Part shown: one piece after another, positions 7,845 through 29,703 of the stretch
Numbering within the stretch: the stretch's first letter is position 1
How the letters are laid out: each line of letters opens with the position of its first letter
From: Fulvivirga sp. M361
GTDB taxonomy: Bacteria > Bacteroidota > Bacteroidia > Cytophagales > Cyclobacteriaceae
Direction: 5' to 3'
Assembly (NCBI RefSeq): GCF_007097395.1
Contig: NZ_VKDC01000007.1
Span: forward strand, 169,063 to 233,062
DNA: 64,000 nucleotides
Translations under genes and position numbers: made by a program
The notes under the pieces: generated by a model
What the model saw: the letters and a program-made list of their open reading frames with translations, nothing else
Databases searched by the model: none
Told to the model about the DNA's origin: nothing

Positions 7845-9577
7845 TTACCTTGCCGGATACAAAATACCTGTTCTGGATATGGGCATTGGGGCTTCTATTG
7901 TTTTTAATATTGGTGATCGTTGAATTTATGCGTAAAAGCGATCATTTTTATTACAGGATCATTGCTTTGTCAGGATGTGTCCTATCTTTAATGGGGATAG
8001 TACTGAAACCTGCATTTCCTGAGAAGATACAGCGCAAAAACCTCATAATTTTAACGGATAATTATAGCCAAAAAGTACTGGATAGTTTACAGAGGTATAG
8101 TGCCAGCCAGGTGGTCCGGTGGGATTCATTGTCAGTAGATCTGTCCCGGTTTGATAAGTTTCATTTGCTGGGTGCGGGTATCCCGGTATATGACCTTTGG
8201 CAGATGAAAGACAAGTCGGTCCGTTATGTTCCCGCTGAACTTCCGGAAGGAATTACCAGGATCAAATACGCTTCCTATATAACCGCAGGAGAATCTGTCA
8301 TTCTTCAGGGGGAATACAGGCAGTCAGAGGCAAATCATGTAAAACTTATACTGAATGGTCCATCCGGAAAAAAAATGGATTCTACCTCCGTATCCATAAG
8401 CGGAACCACACAATTTTTATTGAAAGGGCCTTCTTTTGCTACAGGAGAGCTTTTATATACGTTGGAAGTACGGGACACTACATCCTTACTTTCCAGTGAG
8501 ACCGTGCCCGTAGTAGCCCAGGCTCCTACGGTAATGAACGTGTTTATTATTAATGACTATCCAACATTTGAAACCCGTAGCCTTAAGCAGTTATTGGTCT
8601 CCGAAGGTCACAAAGTAACAGTAAGGAACAAGGTCACTCAAGATCGTTATAGCTATGAATATTATAATACCCGCGCCAGGCAGATCGATCGGTTAACGTC
8701 CGGATTACTACAGGCAGTTCACGTAATCATTATTGATTTTGATTCTTTCAAAGGACTTACGGATAGCGAGTATCAGGAATTACACAGGCAAATGACGGAA
8801 GCAGGGCTGGCTTTGTTCATACAACCTGATGAGGCAATGTTCCACTCGGGTTTGGAGAGGCTGCCGTTCTCATTTTCGAAAGCCGATTCTAAGGAGACGG
8901 TGCTGAAAGTGAATGATGAACCTTTATCCGTGCCTACCTACTCCTATAGACCTGTAATGAAATTGGGAGTGGAGGCGATAACGAATTTTTCAACATTTCC
9001 TGTTTTCTTTTTCCATCATTCCGGTCGTGGGAAAATAGGGTCTGCCTTGTTAACAAAAACTTACCAGATAGGCCTGCAAGGGGATACAATAAGCTACAAT
9101 CGTATTTGGAATACGGTATTTGATCGCCTGTTGGCGGATGTCAATGAAGCAATAGAACTTGACCGGCAAATGGTTTATGAAAATGAACCCCTTCAAGTAT
9201 TCTGGTTTTCAAAAGATGAGAAGCCCTTTGAGGTTAAATACAGGCAGGAACTGCTACCTCCCATTCAAACTGCATTGATCCCGGAACAATGGAGCAGTCA
9301 GCTATGGCCTGATAAAAAAGGATGGGACGAACTGGTATTTATTCGTGATTCATTAAGGCGATATTCATTTTATGTGCATGATGCCGCAGACTGGAAGACA
9401 GTTCGTCAGTTTGAAAGAATAAATGCTAACATTCGTGCCTTTGGAGCGTTCACTAAACTATCTGAGAGCATCAAAAAGAAGGATGAAGTCACTGAACAAA
9501 TACCAATAGAGCCCATTTGGTTTTATTTGATCTTTTTGGGATGTGCAGGATATTTGTGGATAGAACCAAAATTTTAA
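7841..9577 (+). CDS. Membrane protein with N-terminal BatA/BatB-like anchor, last large gene of the operon
   Basis: A 578-residue protein with two N-terminal hydrophobic helices (about 9-28 and 40-57), a long periplasmic region, and a C-terminal helix (PIWFYLIFLGCAGYLWIEP). This anchor-soluble-anchor layout parallels the BatA-like protein two genes upstream, suggesting related architecture and perhaps interaction. The region after the second helix (about 215-330) looks like an alpha/beta fold related to glutamine-amidotransferase-like domains of this operon type (VIIIDFDSFKGLTDSEYQEL), without clear catalytic residues. It begins at an ATG overlapping the DUF4175-like stop. No specific function is assigned. 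Confidence 0.75.
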   Translation: MITLPDTKYLFWIWALGLLLFLILVIVEFMRKSDHFYYRIIALSGCVLSLMGIVLKPAFPEKIQRKNLIILTDNYSQKVLDSLQRYSASQVVRWDSLSVDLSRFDKFHLLGAGIPVYDLWQMKDKSVRYVPAELPEGITRIKYASYITAGESVILQGEYRQSEANHVKLILNGPSGKKMDSTSVSISGTTQFLLKGPSFATGELLYTLEVRDTTSLLSSETVPVVAQAPTVMNVFIINDYPTFETRSLKQLLVSEGHKVTVRNKVTQDRYSYEYYNTRARQIDRLTSGLLQAVHVIIIDFDSFKGLTDSEYQELHRQMTEAGLALFIQPDEAMFHSGLERLPFSFSKADSKETVLKVNDEPLSVPTYSYRPVMKLGVEAITNFSTFPVFFFHHSGRGKIGSALLTKTYQIGLQGDTISYNRIWNTVFDRLLADVNEAIELDRQMVYENEPLQVFWFSKDEKPFEVKYRQELLPPIQTALIPEQWSSQLWPDKKGWDELVFIRDSLRRYSFYVHDAADWKTVRQFERINANIRAFGAFTKLSESIKKKDEVTEQIPIEPIWFYLIFLGCAGYLWIEPKF

Positions 9578-24788: not shown

Positions 24789-25934
24789 TTAATATTTAGC
24801 CAGTGATTGATCTATCTGATCTGCATAGGCCAGAATACCACCTTTCAGATTATAAAGGTTTTTGAACCCGTATTTTTTCTCCAGGGTCCGGATGGCCTTA
24901 GCGCTTCTTACACCGCTTCTACAGTGTACCACCACTTTTTTATCTGAAGAGATTTGATTGACCTGTTCTTCTATGTCACCCAAGGGGATAAGTGTGCCTC
25001 CAATCTCTGCAATTTCAAACTCATAATCCTCACGGACGTCTATGAGTTGAAAGCCGTTACCATTACTTTGCATTTGAGCCAGCTCTTCTACAGTGATTTC
25101 CTTCACTTCTTCTTCCTGTTCTTCTTCACCACCTATTCCACAGAAAATTTGATAATCAATCAGTTCAGTAACTGGTTTTTGGTCGGGATCTTTGATCAGT
25201 TTTACTACCCTTGTCTCAAAAGTGAGTGCATCAAAAAGAAATAACCTTCCGGAGAGTGGGTCGCCTATTCCTGTGATCACCTTTATAACTTCGTTGGCCT
25301 GCAAACTGCCTATGATGCCTGGCAGAACACCAATCACACCACCTTCAGCGCAGCTGGGTACCAGACCTGGCGGCGGTGGGGCAGGGAAGAGGTCACGATA
25401 ATTAGGGCCGCGCTCACCTTTTTCATTTACATAGTTGAAAACTGATACTTGTCCGTCGAACCGGAATATGGAGGCATAGACGTTCGGTTTGTCTAAAATT
25501 ACGCAGGCGTCATTTACCAGATACCTTGTAGGGAAGTTATCTGTACCGTCGGCTACCAAATCATAGTCTTTGATAATATCCAGCGCATTTTCGGAAGTAA
25601 GCTGTACATTATAGGTATTGAAAGTTATATGAGGGTTTAATCCTTTTAGCCTTTCTACCGCGGCTTCTACTTTAGGACGGCCAATATCGTTTACTGAGAA
25701 AAGCACTTGACGCTGTAAATTGGACTCATCTACAACGTCAAAGTCTACAATTCCTAAAGTGCCTACTCCTGCAGCAGCAAGATATTGTAACAAAGGTGCC
25801 CCAAGACCACCGGTTCCTACTACCAATACCTTGGCTCCTTTAAGTTTACGTTGCCCTTTGATGTTAAAATCAGGGATGATCAAGTGCCTGCTGTACCTTT
25901 CCAGCTCAGCTTTGTTGAAATTGATTTCTTCCAT
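24789..25934 (-). CDS. moeZ: MoeZ/MoeB-type adenylyltransferase-sulfurtransferase with rhodanese domain
   Basis: A 381-residue E1-like enzyme that adenylates the C-terminus of a small ubiquitin-like sulfur carrier and then passes sulfur to it. The N-terminal ThiF/HesA domain shows VVGTGGLGAPLLQYLAAAGV, DFDVVDESNLQRQ and the adenylation-loop region DNFPTRYLVNDA, then LPGIIGSLQANEVIK. The C-terminal rhodanese domain (about 280-381) has active-site loop HCRSGVRSA with the catalytic Cys. It follows the sulfur-carrier gene by 7 bp in a four-gene operon, so its partner here is most likely the CysO-like protein, though it could also serve molybdopterin or thiamine carriers. Confidence 0.9.
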   Translation of the reverse strand: MEEINFNKAELERYSRHLIIPDFNIKGQRKLKGAKVLVVGTGGLGAPLLQYLAAAGVGTLGIVDFDVVDESNLQRQVLFSVNDIGRPKVEAAVERLKGLNPHITFNTYNVQLTSENALDIIKDYDLVADGTDNFPTRYLVNDACVILDKPNVYASIFRFDGQVSVFNYVNEKGERGPNYRDLFPAPPPPGLVPSCAEGGVIGVLPGIIGSLQANEVIKVITGIGDPLSGRLFLFDALTFETRVVKLIKDPDQKPVTELIDYQIFCGIGGEEEQEEEVKEITVEELAQMQSNGNGFQLIDVREDYEFEIAEIGGTLIPLGDIEEQVNQISSDKKVVVHCRSGVRSAKAIRTLEKKYGFKNLYNLKGGILAYADQIDQSLAKY

Positions 25935-25941
25935 TTTGCAT

Positions 25942-26220
25942 TTAGTTTATTCCACCTGCTATGGCAGGTATGATACTTACTATACTGCTACTGTCAAGTT
26001 TAGTATTTTGATTGTCCAGTGCTTTAATGTCGTCTTCGCCAACGTAGATGCGCACAAAACTTCTGATATTTCCGTCTGCATCAAACAAGTGTTTTTGCAG
26101 TTCAGGAAAATTATTAGCCAGTCCTTTGATGGCTTGCTCCACAGTACCTTCAGAAGTTTCAATGGAACTCTGGTTTTCTGTGAATTTACGTAATGGTGTT
26201 GGAATAATTAATTTTGCCAT
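25942..26220 (-). CDS. cysO: CysO/MoaD/ThiS-like sulfur carrier with GGIN tail
   Basis: A 92-residue ubiquitin-fold sulfur carrier of the MoaD/ThiS/CysO superfamily. It has the beta-grasp pattern (IIPTPLRKFTENQSSIE, VRIYVGEDDIKAL, SSIVSIIPAIAGG) and the di-glycine needed for thiocarboxylate formation. Unusually, two residues follow the GG (Ile-Asn) before the stop, verified codon by codon at 25942-25953. Some carriers, such as QbsE, need a JAMM protease to expose GG, and a JAMM protein is encoded 4 bp upstream in the operon. It is expected to deliver sulfur to O-phosphoserine or O-acetylserine with the CysM-like enzyme. Confidence 0.88.
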   Translation of the reverse strand: MAKLIIPTPLRKFTENQSSIETSEGTVEQAIKGLANNFPELQKHLFDADGNIRSFVRIYVGEDDIKALDNQNTKLDSSSIVSIIPAIAGGIN

Positions 26221-26224
26221 TTTT

Positions 26225-26647
26225 CTATTTTTTATTAATGTTTAATTCTTCTTTCTCAAATCGTGACGCATCATTTAGTATCCAGCTGGTCACTTCTGCA
26301 CTGATACCTTCCATGACACTTATAATAATATATGAAAACACGGGTACCGCACTTATTCGGTCGTGTTCTGATGGCACTGCAGGGTGGTTTGGGTGGGAGT
26401 GGTATACTCCTAACAAATCCAACCCATGTTTTAATGCATACCTTTCTCCCTTTAAGTAATCTTCCGGTGATATTTCAAAACGTCTGCGTTGGTCTCCGTC
26501 TTTTGTATTGTTTATCACCAGTACTTGGCTGACTGTTTTTTCGTCTCCATATTGACCATAAAAAAAACCGCAGCATTCATTTGGGAAACGTGTTTCAGCA
26601 TCGTGTTTCATAGCTTCCCATGCCGAATTATTTATTACTATCTTCAT
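26225..26647 (-). CDS. JAMM/Mov34 (M67) metallopeptidase, Mec-like
   Basis: A 140-residue zinc peptidase of the M67/JAMM family. The catalytic Glu lies in FPNECCGFFYG (about residue 21), and the metal motif is HSHPNHPAVPSEHD, matching H-x-H-x10-D. In Mycobacterium the homologous Mec enzyme hydrolyses the CysO-cysteine adduct to release cysteine. Here it lies between the cysM-like and cysO-like genes (gaps 7 and 4 bp), strongly supporting the same role. It may also trim the two residues behind the carrier's GG. It is cytoplasmic, with no signal peptide. Confidence 0.9.
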   Translation of the reverse strand: MKIVINNSAWEAMKHDAETRFPNECCGFFYGQYGDEKTVSQVLVINNTKDGDQRRRFEISPEDYLKGERYALKHGLDLLGVYHSHPNHPAVPSEHDRISAVPVFSYIIISVMEGISAEVTSWILNDASRFEKEELNINKK

Positions 26648-26654
26648 ATCTTAT

Positions 26655-27587
26655 TTAGGATAAGAACAAACCATTGATGATCTCACTGTATTTATCAGAG
26701 CTGTCAGGAAACAGTGTGACTATTACACCTTCGTCAATTTCGTCAGCCAGCTTCAGTGCCCCGGACAGGTTAGCTGCAGAAGAAGGGCTCAGTATTAACC
26801 CCTCCTTAGCGGCACATAAACGTATCATCTCAAGGGCTTCGTAAGAGTCGATCTCTTCATACCTGTCAGGAAGTTTGTCATGGTAAATGCCGGGAACTTT
26901 AGCTGTCTCCAAATGCTTCCACCCTTCCATCAGATGAAGGGCACTGTCCGGCTGTAGTGCTATCAGTTCTATTGCAGAGTTGTATTCCTTTAATCTTTTT
27001 CCTGTGCCTGAGAAGCTTCCTGTAGTGCCTAATCCTGTAATAAAATGAGTAATTTCTCCTTTTGTTTGTGTTATAATTTCTTCAGCGGTGCCATAATAAT
27101 GAGCTTTCCAATTGTTGGGGTTATTGTATTGATCAGCATAAAAGAATTTACCGGGATCAGACCTGTAAAGTCCCATGGCGACATTTTGGGCTTCATCGGT
27201 AGATCCAAATTCAGAAGTGTAAATAATTTCTGCTCCCAGGGCTTTCAGTAGCATCTTACGTTCTTTTGAAGCATTAGAGGGGAGGCAGATGGTAACAGGA
27301 ATGTTCAAGGAAGCTCCTATTGTAGCGTAGGCAATCGCTGTGTTACCACTTGATGCGTCTAGCAAGGTTTTTTCTTTATCTAACTCACCGTTTTTAATCG
27401 CATTTTTGATGATGTTGAAAGCAGGCCGCGCCTTTACGCTACCTCCGAATTGTTGCCATTCCAGTTTTGCATAAAGCTTTACACGTTCTTTTTGCAGTAT
27501 ATTGTTGAGCGGGAAAAGGGGGGTGTTCCCGATAAAATCACTAAGATGTGTAACCTCTTCCTGAAGTTTTTCTTCTGATATAAACAT
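26655..27587 (-). CDS. cysM: CysM-type PLP-dependent cysteine synthase
   Basis: A 310-residue fold-type II PLP enzyme. The PLP lysine sits in GGSVKARPAF (about residue 52), the substrate loop is SSGNTAIAYA, and the phosphate-binding loop is GLGTTGSFSGTGKRLKE. It makes cysteine from an activated serine. With a sulfur carrier, JAMM protease and MoeZ encoded directly downstream, it most likely uses carrier thiocarboxylate instead of free sulfide, as the mycobacterial CysM does. It is the first structural gene after a Cys-rich leader peptide and terminator, so attenuation by cysteine supply is the likely control. Confidence 0.9.
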   Translation of the reverse strand: MFISEEKLQEEVTHLSDFIGNTPLFPLNNILQKERVKLYAKLEWQQFGGSVKARPAFNIIKNAIKNGELDKEKTLLDASSGNTAIAYATIGASLNIPVTICLPSNASKERKMLLKALGAEIIYTSEFGSTDEAQNVAMGLYRSDPGKFFYADQYNNPNNWKAHYYGTAEEIITQTKGEITHFITGLGTTGSFSGTGKRLKEYNSAIELIALQPDSALHLMEGWKHLETAKVPGIYHDKLPDRYEEIDSYEALEMIRLCAAKEGLILSPSSAANLSGALKLADEIDEGVIVTLFPDSSDKYSEIINGLFLS

Positions 27588-27628: not shown

Positions 27629-27665
27629 GCAATAAAAAGGCCCTTCCAAATACTGGAAGGGCCTT
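27629..27665 (-). terminator. Attenuator terminator upstream of cysM
   Basis: On the minus strand a perfect 12-bp stem (27665-27654 with 27648-27637, 5-nt loop) is followed by TTTTTATT. It lies 22 nt after the stop codon of the Cys-rich leader peptide and about 50 nt before the cysM start, the standard place for a transcription attenuator. The leader sequence GGAGGG (27716-27711) can pair with CCUUCC/CCCUUCC of the stem's first arm, a candidate antiterminator. Confidence 0.8.
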
Positions 27666-27687
27666 CATTTCATTTTTTTCAATAACC

Positions 27688-27768
27688 TTATACTATATAA
27701 TAATGAAAGTCCCTCCGTTTCAGACAACAGTTACAACAACACATTGTATTTTGACTAGTTCTTTTCAT
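27688..27768 (-). CDS. Cys-rich leader peptide of the cysM operon
   Basis: A 26-codon frame, ATG at 27768 to TAA at 27688. Codons 9-15 read MCCCNCC, that is five TGT codons among six, in an otherwise basic peptide (starts MKRTSQ, later KRR). It is followed by a terminator hairpin and the cysteine biosynthesis operon, so the natural reading is ribosome-mediated attenuation: stalling at Cys codons when cysteinyl-tRNA is scarce would allow read-through. A weak promoter candidate (TTTG 27837-27834, 19 nt, TATTTAGC 27814-27807) would start the transcript about 30 nt upstream. Confidence 0.75.
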   Translation of the reverse strand: MKRTSQNTMCCCNCCLKRRDFHYYIV

Positions 27769-27888: not shown

Positions 27889-29085
27889 TTAGATTTTTTT
27901 CAATACTTTTTCAGCAACTGTATCTCCAATAGAAAGTGATGATGTCGCAGCGGGTGATGGCGCATTACATACATTAACGGCTCTTTCATTTTCCAGGATC
28001 AGAAAATCATCGATCAGTCCACCATTACGATCACATGCCTGTGCCCGAACACCAGCGCCACCAGGCATGAGATCAGCTTCGGAAAGTTCGGGCATCAGTT
28101 TTTGTAATGCCCGGGTAAAAGCTGACTTTGAAAATGAACGATACATTTCACCAAACCCTGTCTTCCAATACTTCGATGCTACTTTCCGGAAACCAGGCCA
28201 GGCTAAGGTCTCTGCCAGTTCACCCAGATGAATATCTGTTTTGGTATATCCCTCTCTTTGAAATGCCAGTACGGCATTAGGGCCTGCTTCTACGCCACCT
28301 TTGATCATACGTGTAAAATGTACTCCTAAAAATGGGAAATTCGGATCGGGTACCGGATAGATGAGATTTTTGACTAAATGCTGTTTTTCAGGCTTTATTT
28401 CATAGTATTCCCCCCGGAAAGGGATGATCTTCACAGATGATTCCATACCTGTGAGTTTGGCTACCTTATCGGAATACAGGCCTGAGCAATTTACAACAAG
28501 CTTTGTAGAGTAGGAAGATCGATCAGTGATTACCACACTTCCTTTTGCATTCTTTTTAACACCGATTACTTTCTCATCAAAGTGTAACTCCCCGTCATTT
28601 TTACGGATCACTTCGGCATATTTCAGAGCTACTTCTTTGTAATCTACAATTCCTGTCTGCGGTACGTAGATGGCTTCTAAACCGTTGACATGCGGTTCGT
28701 ATTCTTTGAGTTGTTCCCTGCCAAGTACTTTTAGGCCCTCCAGACCATTTTCTATGCCTCTATTATGAAGGGTGTGCATCAGTGGGATTTCTTCTTTAGA
28801 AGTAGCCACTACCAACTTACCACAGAGTTCAAATGGAATATCGTACTTCTTACAAAACCGGATGAGCATTTCATAGCCCCGTATACAATTGATTGCCTTT
28901 AAACTTCCAGGCTTATAATAGAGACCGGAATGTATTACTCCACTGTTATGCCCGGTTTGATGAGCAGCAACTTCAGACTCCTTGTCCAGTACCAATATTT
29001 TTAAAGAGGGATTCTTTTCTTTGAGTTTCAAACTGGTGGCAAGTCCTACAATACCTGCTCCAATAACCACAACATCATATGCCAT
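27889..29085 (-). CDS. lhgO: L-2-hydroxyglutarate oxidase
   Basis: A 398-residue FAD-dependent oxidoreductase of the DAO superfamily that oxidises L-2-hydroxyglutarate to 2-oxoglutarate. It has the N-terminal dinucleotide motif GAGIVGLA (about residues 9-16), HQTGHNSGVIHSGLYYKPGS typical of LhgO, the segment FRGEYYEIKPEKQHLVKNLIYPVPDP, and the C-terminal GGAGVRAQACDRNGGLIDDF. It probably passes electrons to the quinone pool at the membrane face. It precedes the cysM leader on the same strand, and its downstream region merges into that leader. Confidence 0.93.
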   Translation of the reverse strand: MAYDVVVIGAGIVGLATSLKLKEKNPSLKILVLDKESEVAAHQTGHNSGVIHSGLYYKPGSLKAINCIRGYEMLIRFCKKYDIPFELCGKLVVATSKEEIPLMHTLHNRGIENGLEGLKVLGREQLKEYEPHVNGLEAIYVPQTGIVDYKEVALKYAEVIRKNDGELHFDEKVIGVKKNAKGSVVITDRSSYSTKLVVNCSGLYSDKVAKLTGMESSVKIIPFRGEYYEIKPEKQHLVKNLIYPVPDPNFPFLGVHFTRMIKGGVEAGPNAVLAFQREGYTKTDIHLGELAETLAWPGFRKVASKYWKTGFGEMYRSFSKSAFTRALQKLMPELSEADLMPGGAGVRAQACDRNGGLIDDFLILENERAVNVCNAPSPAATSSLSIGDTVAEKVLKKI

Positions 29086-29196: not shown

Positions 29197-29703
29197 TTAT
29201 TGTTGCTTATTCTTTTCAAAATCCAAAGAAGCAGAATTAATGCAATAACGTAACCCGGTAGGTTCAGGACCATCCGGAAAAACATGACCGAGATGACCGC
29301 CACATCGGGTACATACCACTTCTTCTCTGACCATACCAAAACTTGTGTCCTTTTCTACTGTCACATTCTCTTCATCAATTGGCTCATAAAAGCTAGGCCA
29401 TCCGCTCCCAGATTCGAATTTAGTGCCTGATGAAAATAACTTTTGATGACATGCAGCGCAATAATACGTCCCCTCTTCATGATTGTCCCAAAATTCACCT
29501 GTAAAAGCTCTTTCCGTACCTTTTTCCCGAAGTATATTATACTCTTCTTTCGTTAATTCCTTTCTCCACTCTTCTTCAGATTTCACTATTCTATCGTCCA
29601 TATTTTTTATTATAGTTTTTCTTGATTCCTGACCTGTACTGCATGAAAAAAACAATATACCCGTCAGAATCAAAATACCATGAATAAAATTGATGTTTTT
29701 CAT
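29197..29703 (-). CDS. msrB: Peptide-methionine (R)-S-oxide reductase, lipoprotein form
   Basis: MsrB repairs methionine-R-sulfoxide in proteins. The 168-residue product begins with a lipoprotein signal (lipobox FFSC), so it is an envelope enzyme and not the usual cytoplasmic form. The domain is complete: [22 protein letters not shown], zinc pairs CAACH and [17 protein letters not shown], and the catalytic Cys in RYCINSAS. It is a single gene, divergent from yfiR. Confidence 0.95.

Follow-up and report, generated by a model that had tools for sequence, protein, structure and literature searches.

A candidate cysteine-codon leader attenuator at the head of carrier-protein cysteine operons in Bacteroidota

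Introduction

The leader-peptide attenuators of the trp, his and leu operons are built from codons for the amino acid that the operon makes, alternative hairpins and a terminator. For cysteine, the leaders of mycobacteria were reportedly put to an experimental test by Canestrari et al. in 2020. In Mycobacterium, P. acnes and B. longum, poly-Cys leader frames have been predicted before cysteine genes, and the accessible part of that study describes no conserved terminator and a Cys run placed near the stop codon (PMC1262725); according to excerpts of two papers that cite later work, the mycobacterial leaders have been tested and respond to cysteine (PMC9094748, PMC9031893). In the Rhodobacterales, the uORFC-8-2 motif is a predicted Cys-codon leader followed by a U-tailed terminator before cysS, for which stalling at low Cys-tRNA was proposed in the portion of the source available (PMC8632094). 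Leader-peptide attenuation has also been described before amino-acid operons of a flavobacterium, with cysteine not named in the available part of the report (PMC9723704).

Bacteroidota are a dominant bacterial phylum, and the open-access literature that we searched (subscription journals lay mostly beyond its scope) held no cysteine-specific RNA control for them: we found no report there of a cysteine attenuator family in this phylum, nor any that combines a SAM riboswitch with a Cys leader. A concrete and testable candidate now exists, found in a 64,000-nucleotide stretch of the genome of Fulvivirga sp. M361, the whole of which we call the window. The first-pass annotation of this DNA had considered an attenuator of carrier-dependent cysteine synthesis new for Bacteroidota. 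This part of its claim stands for the open-access literature, but the kind of switch was already known from the Rhodobacterales and the Actinobacteria, as the accessible parts of the two sources describe it (PMC8632094, PMC1262725).

Results

The leader and its operon in the window

The leader is a frame of 26 codons on the minus strand (27768..27688, from the sequence and the open reading frame list) that encodes MKRTSQNTMCCCNCCLKRRDFHYYIV and then stops. Met is codon 9 and Cys occupies codons 10-12 and 14-15, exactly as first annotated. The run Cys Cys Cys Asn Cys Cys (codons 10-15; 27724..27741, minus strand) is the proposed stall site, a designation based on the sequence and on the Cys runs of homologues; 11 codons separate the last Cys from the stop codon, and the terminator comes after. 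This terminator, detected by a terminator scan, is an intrinsic hairpin, GAAGGCCCTTCCAGTATTTGGAAGGGCCTTT (27666-27636, minus strand), with 14 pairs including G-T and a T-rich tail, TTATTGC; we refer to its 5′ arm as region 3 and its 3′ arm as region 4. The perfect 12-bp core that the annotation had placed 22 nt past the leader and ahead of cysM is indeed there, at 27665-27637, at that distance from the leader stop codon. Between the Cys codons and the stop codon, 6-20 nt past the last Cys codon, lies region 2, the putative antiterminator strand CGGAGGGACTTTCA (27717-27704, minus strand). Its predicted pairing with the terminator 5′ arm is worth -16.3 kcal/mol, whereas 200 shuffles average -8.7 kcal/mol (p 0.005). 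The leader region itself folds with a z of -2.37 relative to shuffles, three of 200 shuffles being equally stable.

The operon that follows, also on the minus strand, begins with a PLP-dependent cysteine synthase of cysM type (26655..27587, start at 27587; Pfam PF00291, best NCBIfam model cysM). Behind it are a JAMM/JAB-type peptidase (26225..26647; Pfam PF14464 Prok-JAB), which we take to be Mec+-like, a ThiS-family sulfur carrier (25942..26220; Pfam PF02597), presumably CysO-like, and a MoeZ-type activating enzyme with ThiF and rhodanese domains (24789..25934; Pfam PF00899 and PF00581, best NCBIfam MoeB/MoeZ). The Pfam families thus agree with the gene order cysM/JAMM/cysO/moeZ given by the first-pass annotation, with the names softened: because the NCBIfam scores fall below the model cut-offs, the proteins are called only ‘cysM-type’ and ‘MoeZ-type’. 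We presume that the set resembles the mycobacterial genes for carrier-protein-dependent cysteine synthesis. Upstream of the leader and on the same strand is a gene for an FAD-dependent oxidoreductase (27889-29085, minus strand; Pfam DAO), and two genes upstream is an MsrB-like frame (29197-29703), a methionine sulfoxide reductase from reading of the sequence.

Comparison of the window with Rfam at gathering scores gave no match, so neither a T-box nor a curated riboswitch was found, and no promoter was identified for the leader. Across homologues, a promoter-like motif, TAN1-3TTTG, occurs 200-40 nt before the last Cys codon at 35 of 66 loci, where 16.7 are expected and the reverse strand gives 21. 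Despite this positive overall test, the motif was not found in the leader region of the window, and therefore we claim no promoter there.

Conservation of the leader among homologues

A search of 58 related genomes returned nine loci near the window CysM, itself included, at 56-100% identity (L001-L009). Once these were oriented, a poly-Cys short frame was found upstream in eight of the nine; L009, whose cysM lacks the companion genes of the operon, has no Cys leader upstream. A profile of the nine proteins was then used to select the best 80 of 285 loci in the species collection, which span Cytophagales, Saprospiraceae, Chitinophagaceae, Flavobacteriales, one Sphingobacteriales and Balneolaceae; five of the 80 come from genomes already in the 58-genome search. 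The JAMM gene follows cysM in 78 of these 80 loci, the carrier in 77/80 and MoeZ in 74/80, and the missing downstream genes fall at contig ends, except in L089.

Together with the window this gives 81 upstream regions. In 69 of them the operon strand contains a frame where six codons include three or more Cys; the reverse strand does so in 10/81. The L101 frame among the 69 is spurious and sits inside a gene. Three or more Cys in a row occur in 68/81 regions on the operon strand and in 4/81 on the reverse strand, three of these four being Balneolaceae. The operon head is out of view at seven loci, which could not be judged: L059, L066 and L080 have less than 210 nt upstream, and L041, L098, L101 and L110 lie at contig ends. 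The 68 regions with a direct match and six heads of rearranged operons (below) then make up all that could be judged, and therefore a short frame with a Cys run stands at the head of 74/74 judgeable operons among the 80 best-matching loci and the window. An intact operon preceded by a leader without Cys codons was looked for, and none was seen among the 74. The alignment across relatives proposed in the first-pass annotation accordingly turned out in favor of the leader, with the hairpin somewhat less uniform than the Cys codons: the strict finder places a U-tailed hairpin at 65/74 loci and none at nine, namely six Balneolaceae, L058, L052 and L065. At L052 and L065 hairpins with longer loops are visible by eye; a match reported in the Balneolaceae locus L095 was rejected as spurious.

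The Balneolaceae loci have features of their own. In L060, L062, L069, L084, L095 and L099 the Cys run of the cysM leader is at or near the stop codon, and several of these leaders have a hairpin with a C/U-rich loop soon after it. In L060, L069, L084 and L099 a Cys-cluster frame also precedes a rhodanese-like gene on the opposite strand.

Between lineages, the leader peptides have little sequence in common apart from the Cys run, and their longest runs range from three to eight Cys. In twelve close pairs the Cys codons are kept at 68/72 aligned positions; only 2/68 of those kept differ synonymously, so the pairs alone are no proof of selection on the amino acid.

In six loci cysM is not the first gene (L043, L086, L090, L092, L096 and L097). 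It is preceded by a peroxiredoxin-like gene in L043, L086, L092, L096 and L097 (a Pfam AhpC-TSA match in L043 and L097, resemblance in L086, L092 and L096) and by a sulfite reductase and a tetrapyrrole methylase in L090, where a PAPS reductase-type gene closes an operon that reads sulfite reductase-cysM-JAMM-MoeZ-PAPS reductase. The longer operon is headed at each of these loci by a Cys frame and its U-tailed hairpin, and five of the six have two Cys frames. The regulatory leader thus keeps its place at the operon head while the genes behind it change order. Only the second of the two Cys frames of L090 has a hairpin; the serial leaders there (L090:1734-2069) comprise one with its run before its stop codon and one with a terminator.

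A second set was drawn evenly across the phylum. It comprised 296 genomes, 33 of them with a strong match, the window's own included, and 29 loci were read; at least four of the 29 (L243-L246) repeat the first set in leader or first-gene sequence, so the two sets are not independent. JAMM, carrier and MoeZ follow cysM in 23/29 loci, and 20 of these 23 intact operons have a Cys leader, a count of Cys leaders alone that leaves hairpins out and in which L250, L261 and L262 figure only when the frame-length limit and the start-codon requirement are lifted. In L246 the leader is at the head, before a peroxiredoxin-like gene. The intact operons of L252, L256 and L260 show no dense Cys cluster within 1400 nt of cysM; the cysM strand has other frames that end 131-312 nt upstream of the gene, and cysM may therefore be internal to a longer operon at these loci. 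No Cys leader (0/6) was found at loci of this set that lack the full gene set. Some GC-rich genomes of the set carry very different leaders, for example SPVHRCCCCCC (L249, L250 and L258).

Specificity of the association

Paralogous cysteine synthases of the relatives, outside this operon, were used as a control, and a Cys cluster precedes 0/20 of them (L028 was left out, its contig being too short). Within the 80 loci, the loose criterion of at least three Cys in six codons selects 67/78 cysM regions versus 27/336 other genes, and raising it to at least four Cys gives 61/78 versus 8/336. Six of these eight other genes are sulfur genes: four rhodanese-like, one sulfite reductase (L090) and one MetY-type (L097). 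A check of protein families covered the last two and, of the rhodanese-like genes, those of L060 and L084. The background is therefore nearer 2/336. The frame ahead of the MetY-type gene of L097, near the cysM operon and before position 8457, reads MIQYTQNMMCCCCCQPRQPDSYWCR.

Runs of Cys codons on their own served poorly for finding leaders. When 148 genomes were scanned for six Cys codons in a row, the matches mostly overlay other genes; of 30 loci selected from them, 23 have a frame of at least 100 codons covering the run in another frame or strand. The other seven are L218, L229, L217, L226, L227, L231 and L240; L218 is the ferredoxin leader of the window's own genome, and L229 was rejected, being leader-like but overlapping an asparagine-rich frame of 79 codons on the opposite strand. 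Four-Cys runs gave 35 matches in the own genome, and among the 25 distinct loci read were two leaders (L118 and L134).

Terminator and antiterminator across homologues

To the 81 regions we added L006 and L008, giving 83 loci for a survey of hairpins, 71 of which hold 96 Cys frames. By the strict finder, 80/96 of these frames have a U-tailed hairpin no more than 170 nt away (one of the 80, that of L095, being spurious); the stem lies at a median of 60 nt past the last Cys codon and 28 nt past the stop codon. At 18/62 loci there are two Cys frames, each with its hairpin. By eye, L003 (=L034) and L004 (=L037) show two serial terminators behind a single Cys leader.

Some 13 nt beyond the last Cys codon comes a strand complementary to the terminator 5′ arm. 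In 73/79 units region 2 starts 5-23 nt past this codon, compared with 24/79 when spacers are reversed, for a range that was set after inspecting the pairing results. Summed over units, the pairing of region 2 with its own arm amounts to -850.5 kcal/mol, versus -684.5 kcal/mol (sd 19.0) when arms are swapped among loci; 0/2000 permutations match the observed value, in a test that counts close relatives as independent units. Taken singly and against shuffled spacers, 37/80 units reach p <= 0.05 and 18/80 reach p <= 0.01. Reversing the spacers weakens the mean pairing modestly, from -10.8 to -9.7 kcal/mol (p 8e-4); the effect is small because the common GGAAAGG is near-identical backwards. Among eight units with CTCCAC arms there was no preference for the own arm. 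The antiterminator candidate that had been noticed just after the Cys codons is thus upheld by its pairing in the window and by covariation overall, with significance for single units at fewer than half of the 80.

The leader stop codon lies either within region 2 or close to one of its two ends. From these distances we infer that it is near enough for a ribosome stopped there to mask region 2.

A second form linked to SAM-I riboswitches

The same genome contains two further Cys runs, each right before a stop codon and just downstream of a SAM-I riboswitch (RF00162; 64.9 and 66.4 bits, cut-off 44.4), at L171 (G000:C83:257700-258750) and L172 (G000:C56:88100-89101). One frame, ...STYCPSALVCCCCCCC, precedes a ferredoxin-like gene, so called from 4Fe-4S Pfam matches just below the cut-offs, and an O-succinylhomoserine sulfhydrylase-type gene; the other, ...GSPGIIHCCCCC, precedes an O-acetylhomoserine sulfhydrylase-type gene. 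The same combination recurs at L155, L157, L162, L166, L173-L191, L195, L196, L199, L200, L202, L203, L209 and L210, with the Cys cluster mostly at the end of the leader frame.

We read 70 SAM-I riboswitch loci from the own genome and its relatives and sorted them by downstream gene. With genes assigned by sequence motifs specific to this analysis, and with ferredoxin loci set apart once the data had been inspected, a Cys-cluster frame follows the riboswitch at 18/19 metY loci and 14/14 loci with ferredoxin(-metZ), together 32/33. It follows at 1/6 loci where metZ stands without ferredoxin (L146, L161 and L150 have a lone metZ behind the riboswitch and no Cys leader), at 0/25 metH loci and at 0/6 loci with other genes.

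Among 28 SAM-I-linked leaders that were folded, 27 of them with a run of four or more Cys, no U-tailed hairpin after the run stood out by eye; many have other hairpins 3′ of the stop codon. The Balneolaceae cysM leaders look like these. C/U-rich stretches after the stop codon lead us to guess that this terminator-less form might use Rho-dependent termination; translation would be the other candidate target. In the metY leaders of the genus (L171, L173, L175, L177, L179, L182, L183 and L187-L189) the start of the peptide, MKRSIQHQTGLLA.F, is conserved with small changes, beyond what counting of codons alone needs.

Discussion

The order of the elements, with Cys codons, then region 2 with a stop codon nearby, then a terminator, suggests a leader-peptide attenuator. 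What the sequences contain is a cluster of codons for the operon's product, a terminator before the first gene, a covarying antiterminator and the spacing of the stop codon. We therefore read the leader as a ribosome-mediated transcription attenuator that would sense charged cysteinyl-tRNA, and put the probability of this reading at roughly 0.88. This predicted anatomy (Cys frame, region 2, U-tailed terminator, cysteine operon) is conserved across the phylum.

With ample cysteine, the ribosome would pass the Cys codons, reach the stop codon and cover region 2; with region 2 masked, the terminator 3:4 would form, and transcription would end before cysM. When charged tRNA-Cys is scarce, the ribosome would be held on the Cys codons and region 2 would stay uncovered; its pairing with the terminator 5′ arm, the 2:3 antiterminator, would let RNA polymerase read into cysM-JAMM-carrier-MoeZ. 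Tandem units such as those of some relatives would tighten the brake. As judged from the arrangement of these elements, the leader is probably a brake, with the operon running only at low cysteine.

Other readings of the same elements have to be weighed. A short frame arisen by chance, next to the ordinary terminator of the FAD-dependent oxidoreductase gene upstream (27889-29085), would draw on the fact that this gene shares the strand and that Cys-cluster short frames precede 27/336 other genes under the loose criterion. Chance had been called unlikely when the locus was first annotated, and the comparative data go further: the leader is present at 74/74 judgeable operons, even behind exchanged first genes, and at 0/20 paralogues, and the pairing covaries. 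The probability left to chance is negligible, and in our view these data refute it. Two other readings keep a small share. One grants the leader a role in translation, whether by coupling, by re-initiation or by hiding the cysM start, with a hairpin that just ends the upstream transcript or protects the RNA. Poly-Cys leaders without a terminator do exist in Actinobacteria, as described in the accessible part of the source (PMC1262725), and none was found here for the Balneolaceae cysM leaders and the SAM-riboswitch leaders. Yet a U-tailed hairpin on the operon strand, between leader and first gene, comes after 80/96 Cys frames (one of them spurious), and 18 loci have it twice, each time behind its own Cys frame; we hold a purely translational role to be quite unlikely.

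Slightly less improbable, and still unlikely, is that the same RNA switch is set by the nascent peptide, which, within the ribosome tunnel or close to it, would sense redox state, a metal, thiols or sulfide through its Cys residues; the stall would then be specific to the peptide instead of following a shortage of charged tRNA-Cys. Metal binding and reaction with thiols are general properties of Cys residues, and in five loci of the first set the operon that bears the leader starts with a peroxiredoxin-like gene. Such sensing is harder to reconcile with peptides that share little beyond a Cys run of three to eight residues, which codon counting fits better, and with downstream genes that make cysteine. 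Attenuation through charged cysteinyl-tRNA thus remains the reading that we prefer.

If this attenuator and the SAM-I-linked leaders are taken together, a cysteine regulon across the Bacteroidota, working through two forms of Cys leader, becomes a reasonably probable proposal. Its terminator-type attenuators, sometimes doubled, would control the carrier-protein cysteine operon as well as sulfate-reduction operons into which it has been absorbed. In the other form, a SAM-I riboswitch followed by a leader peptide with a Cys run at or near its end would place two inputs, SAM and cysteine, on metY and ferredoxin-metZ and not on metH. Such a pair would be a natural two-signal RNA gate, telling methionine demand apart from cysteine demand. 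The leader family predicts which operons belong to cysteine control, and the finding opens the way to a wider cysteine regulon.

Of the described systems, the trp, his and leu attenuators have the same layout as the window leader and differ from it in amino acid, phylum and gene set. The SAM-I (S-box) riboswitch RF00162 is found in this genome just upstream of the Cys frames of two operons besides the cysM one; it is absent from the window and from the 10 cysM loci in which it was sought. Actinobacterial poly-Cys leaders resemble the window leader in being short frames that contain a run of Cys codons and precede cysteine genes; a leaderless mRNA, in which transcript and frame begin together, is a further trait of that type. 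In contrast to them, the window leader has a terminator and an antiterminator, and its Cys run lies 11 codons before the stop codon. The SAM-I-linked leaders and the terminator-less leaders of Balneolaceae look closer to the actinobacterial type. With uORFC-8-2 the likeness extends to a short frame with Cys codons, a U-tailed terminator after it and the proposed stalling. However, that motif has two tandem Cys codons and precedes cysS in alphaproteobacteria, whereas the Bacteroidota family has runs of three to eight before a cysteine biosynthesis operon, doubled at some loci. Judged by the motif description, the window leader is set apart from uORFC-8-2 by its cysM-type gene and its different number of Cys codons. 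It belongs to a new family of a known kind of switch, one with arrangements of its own: tandem units and a fixed place at the operon head.
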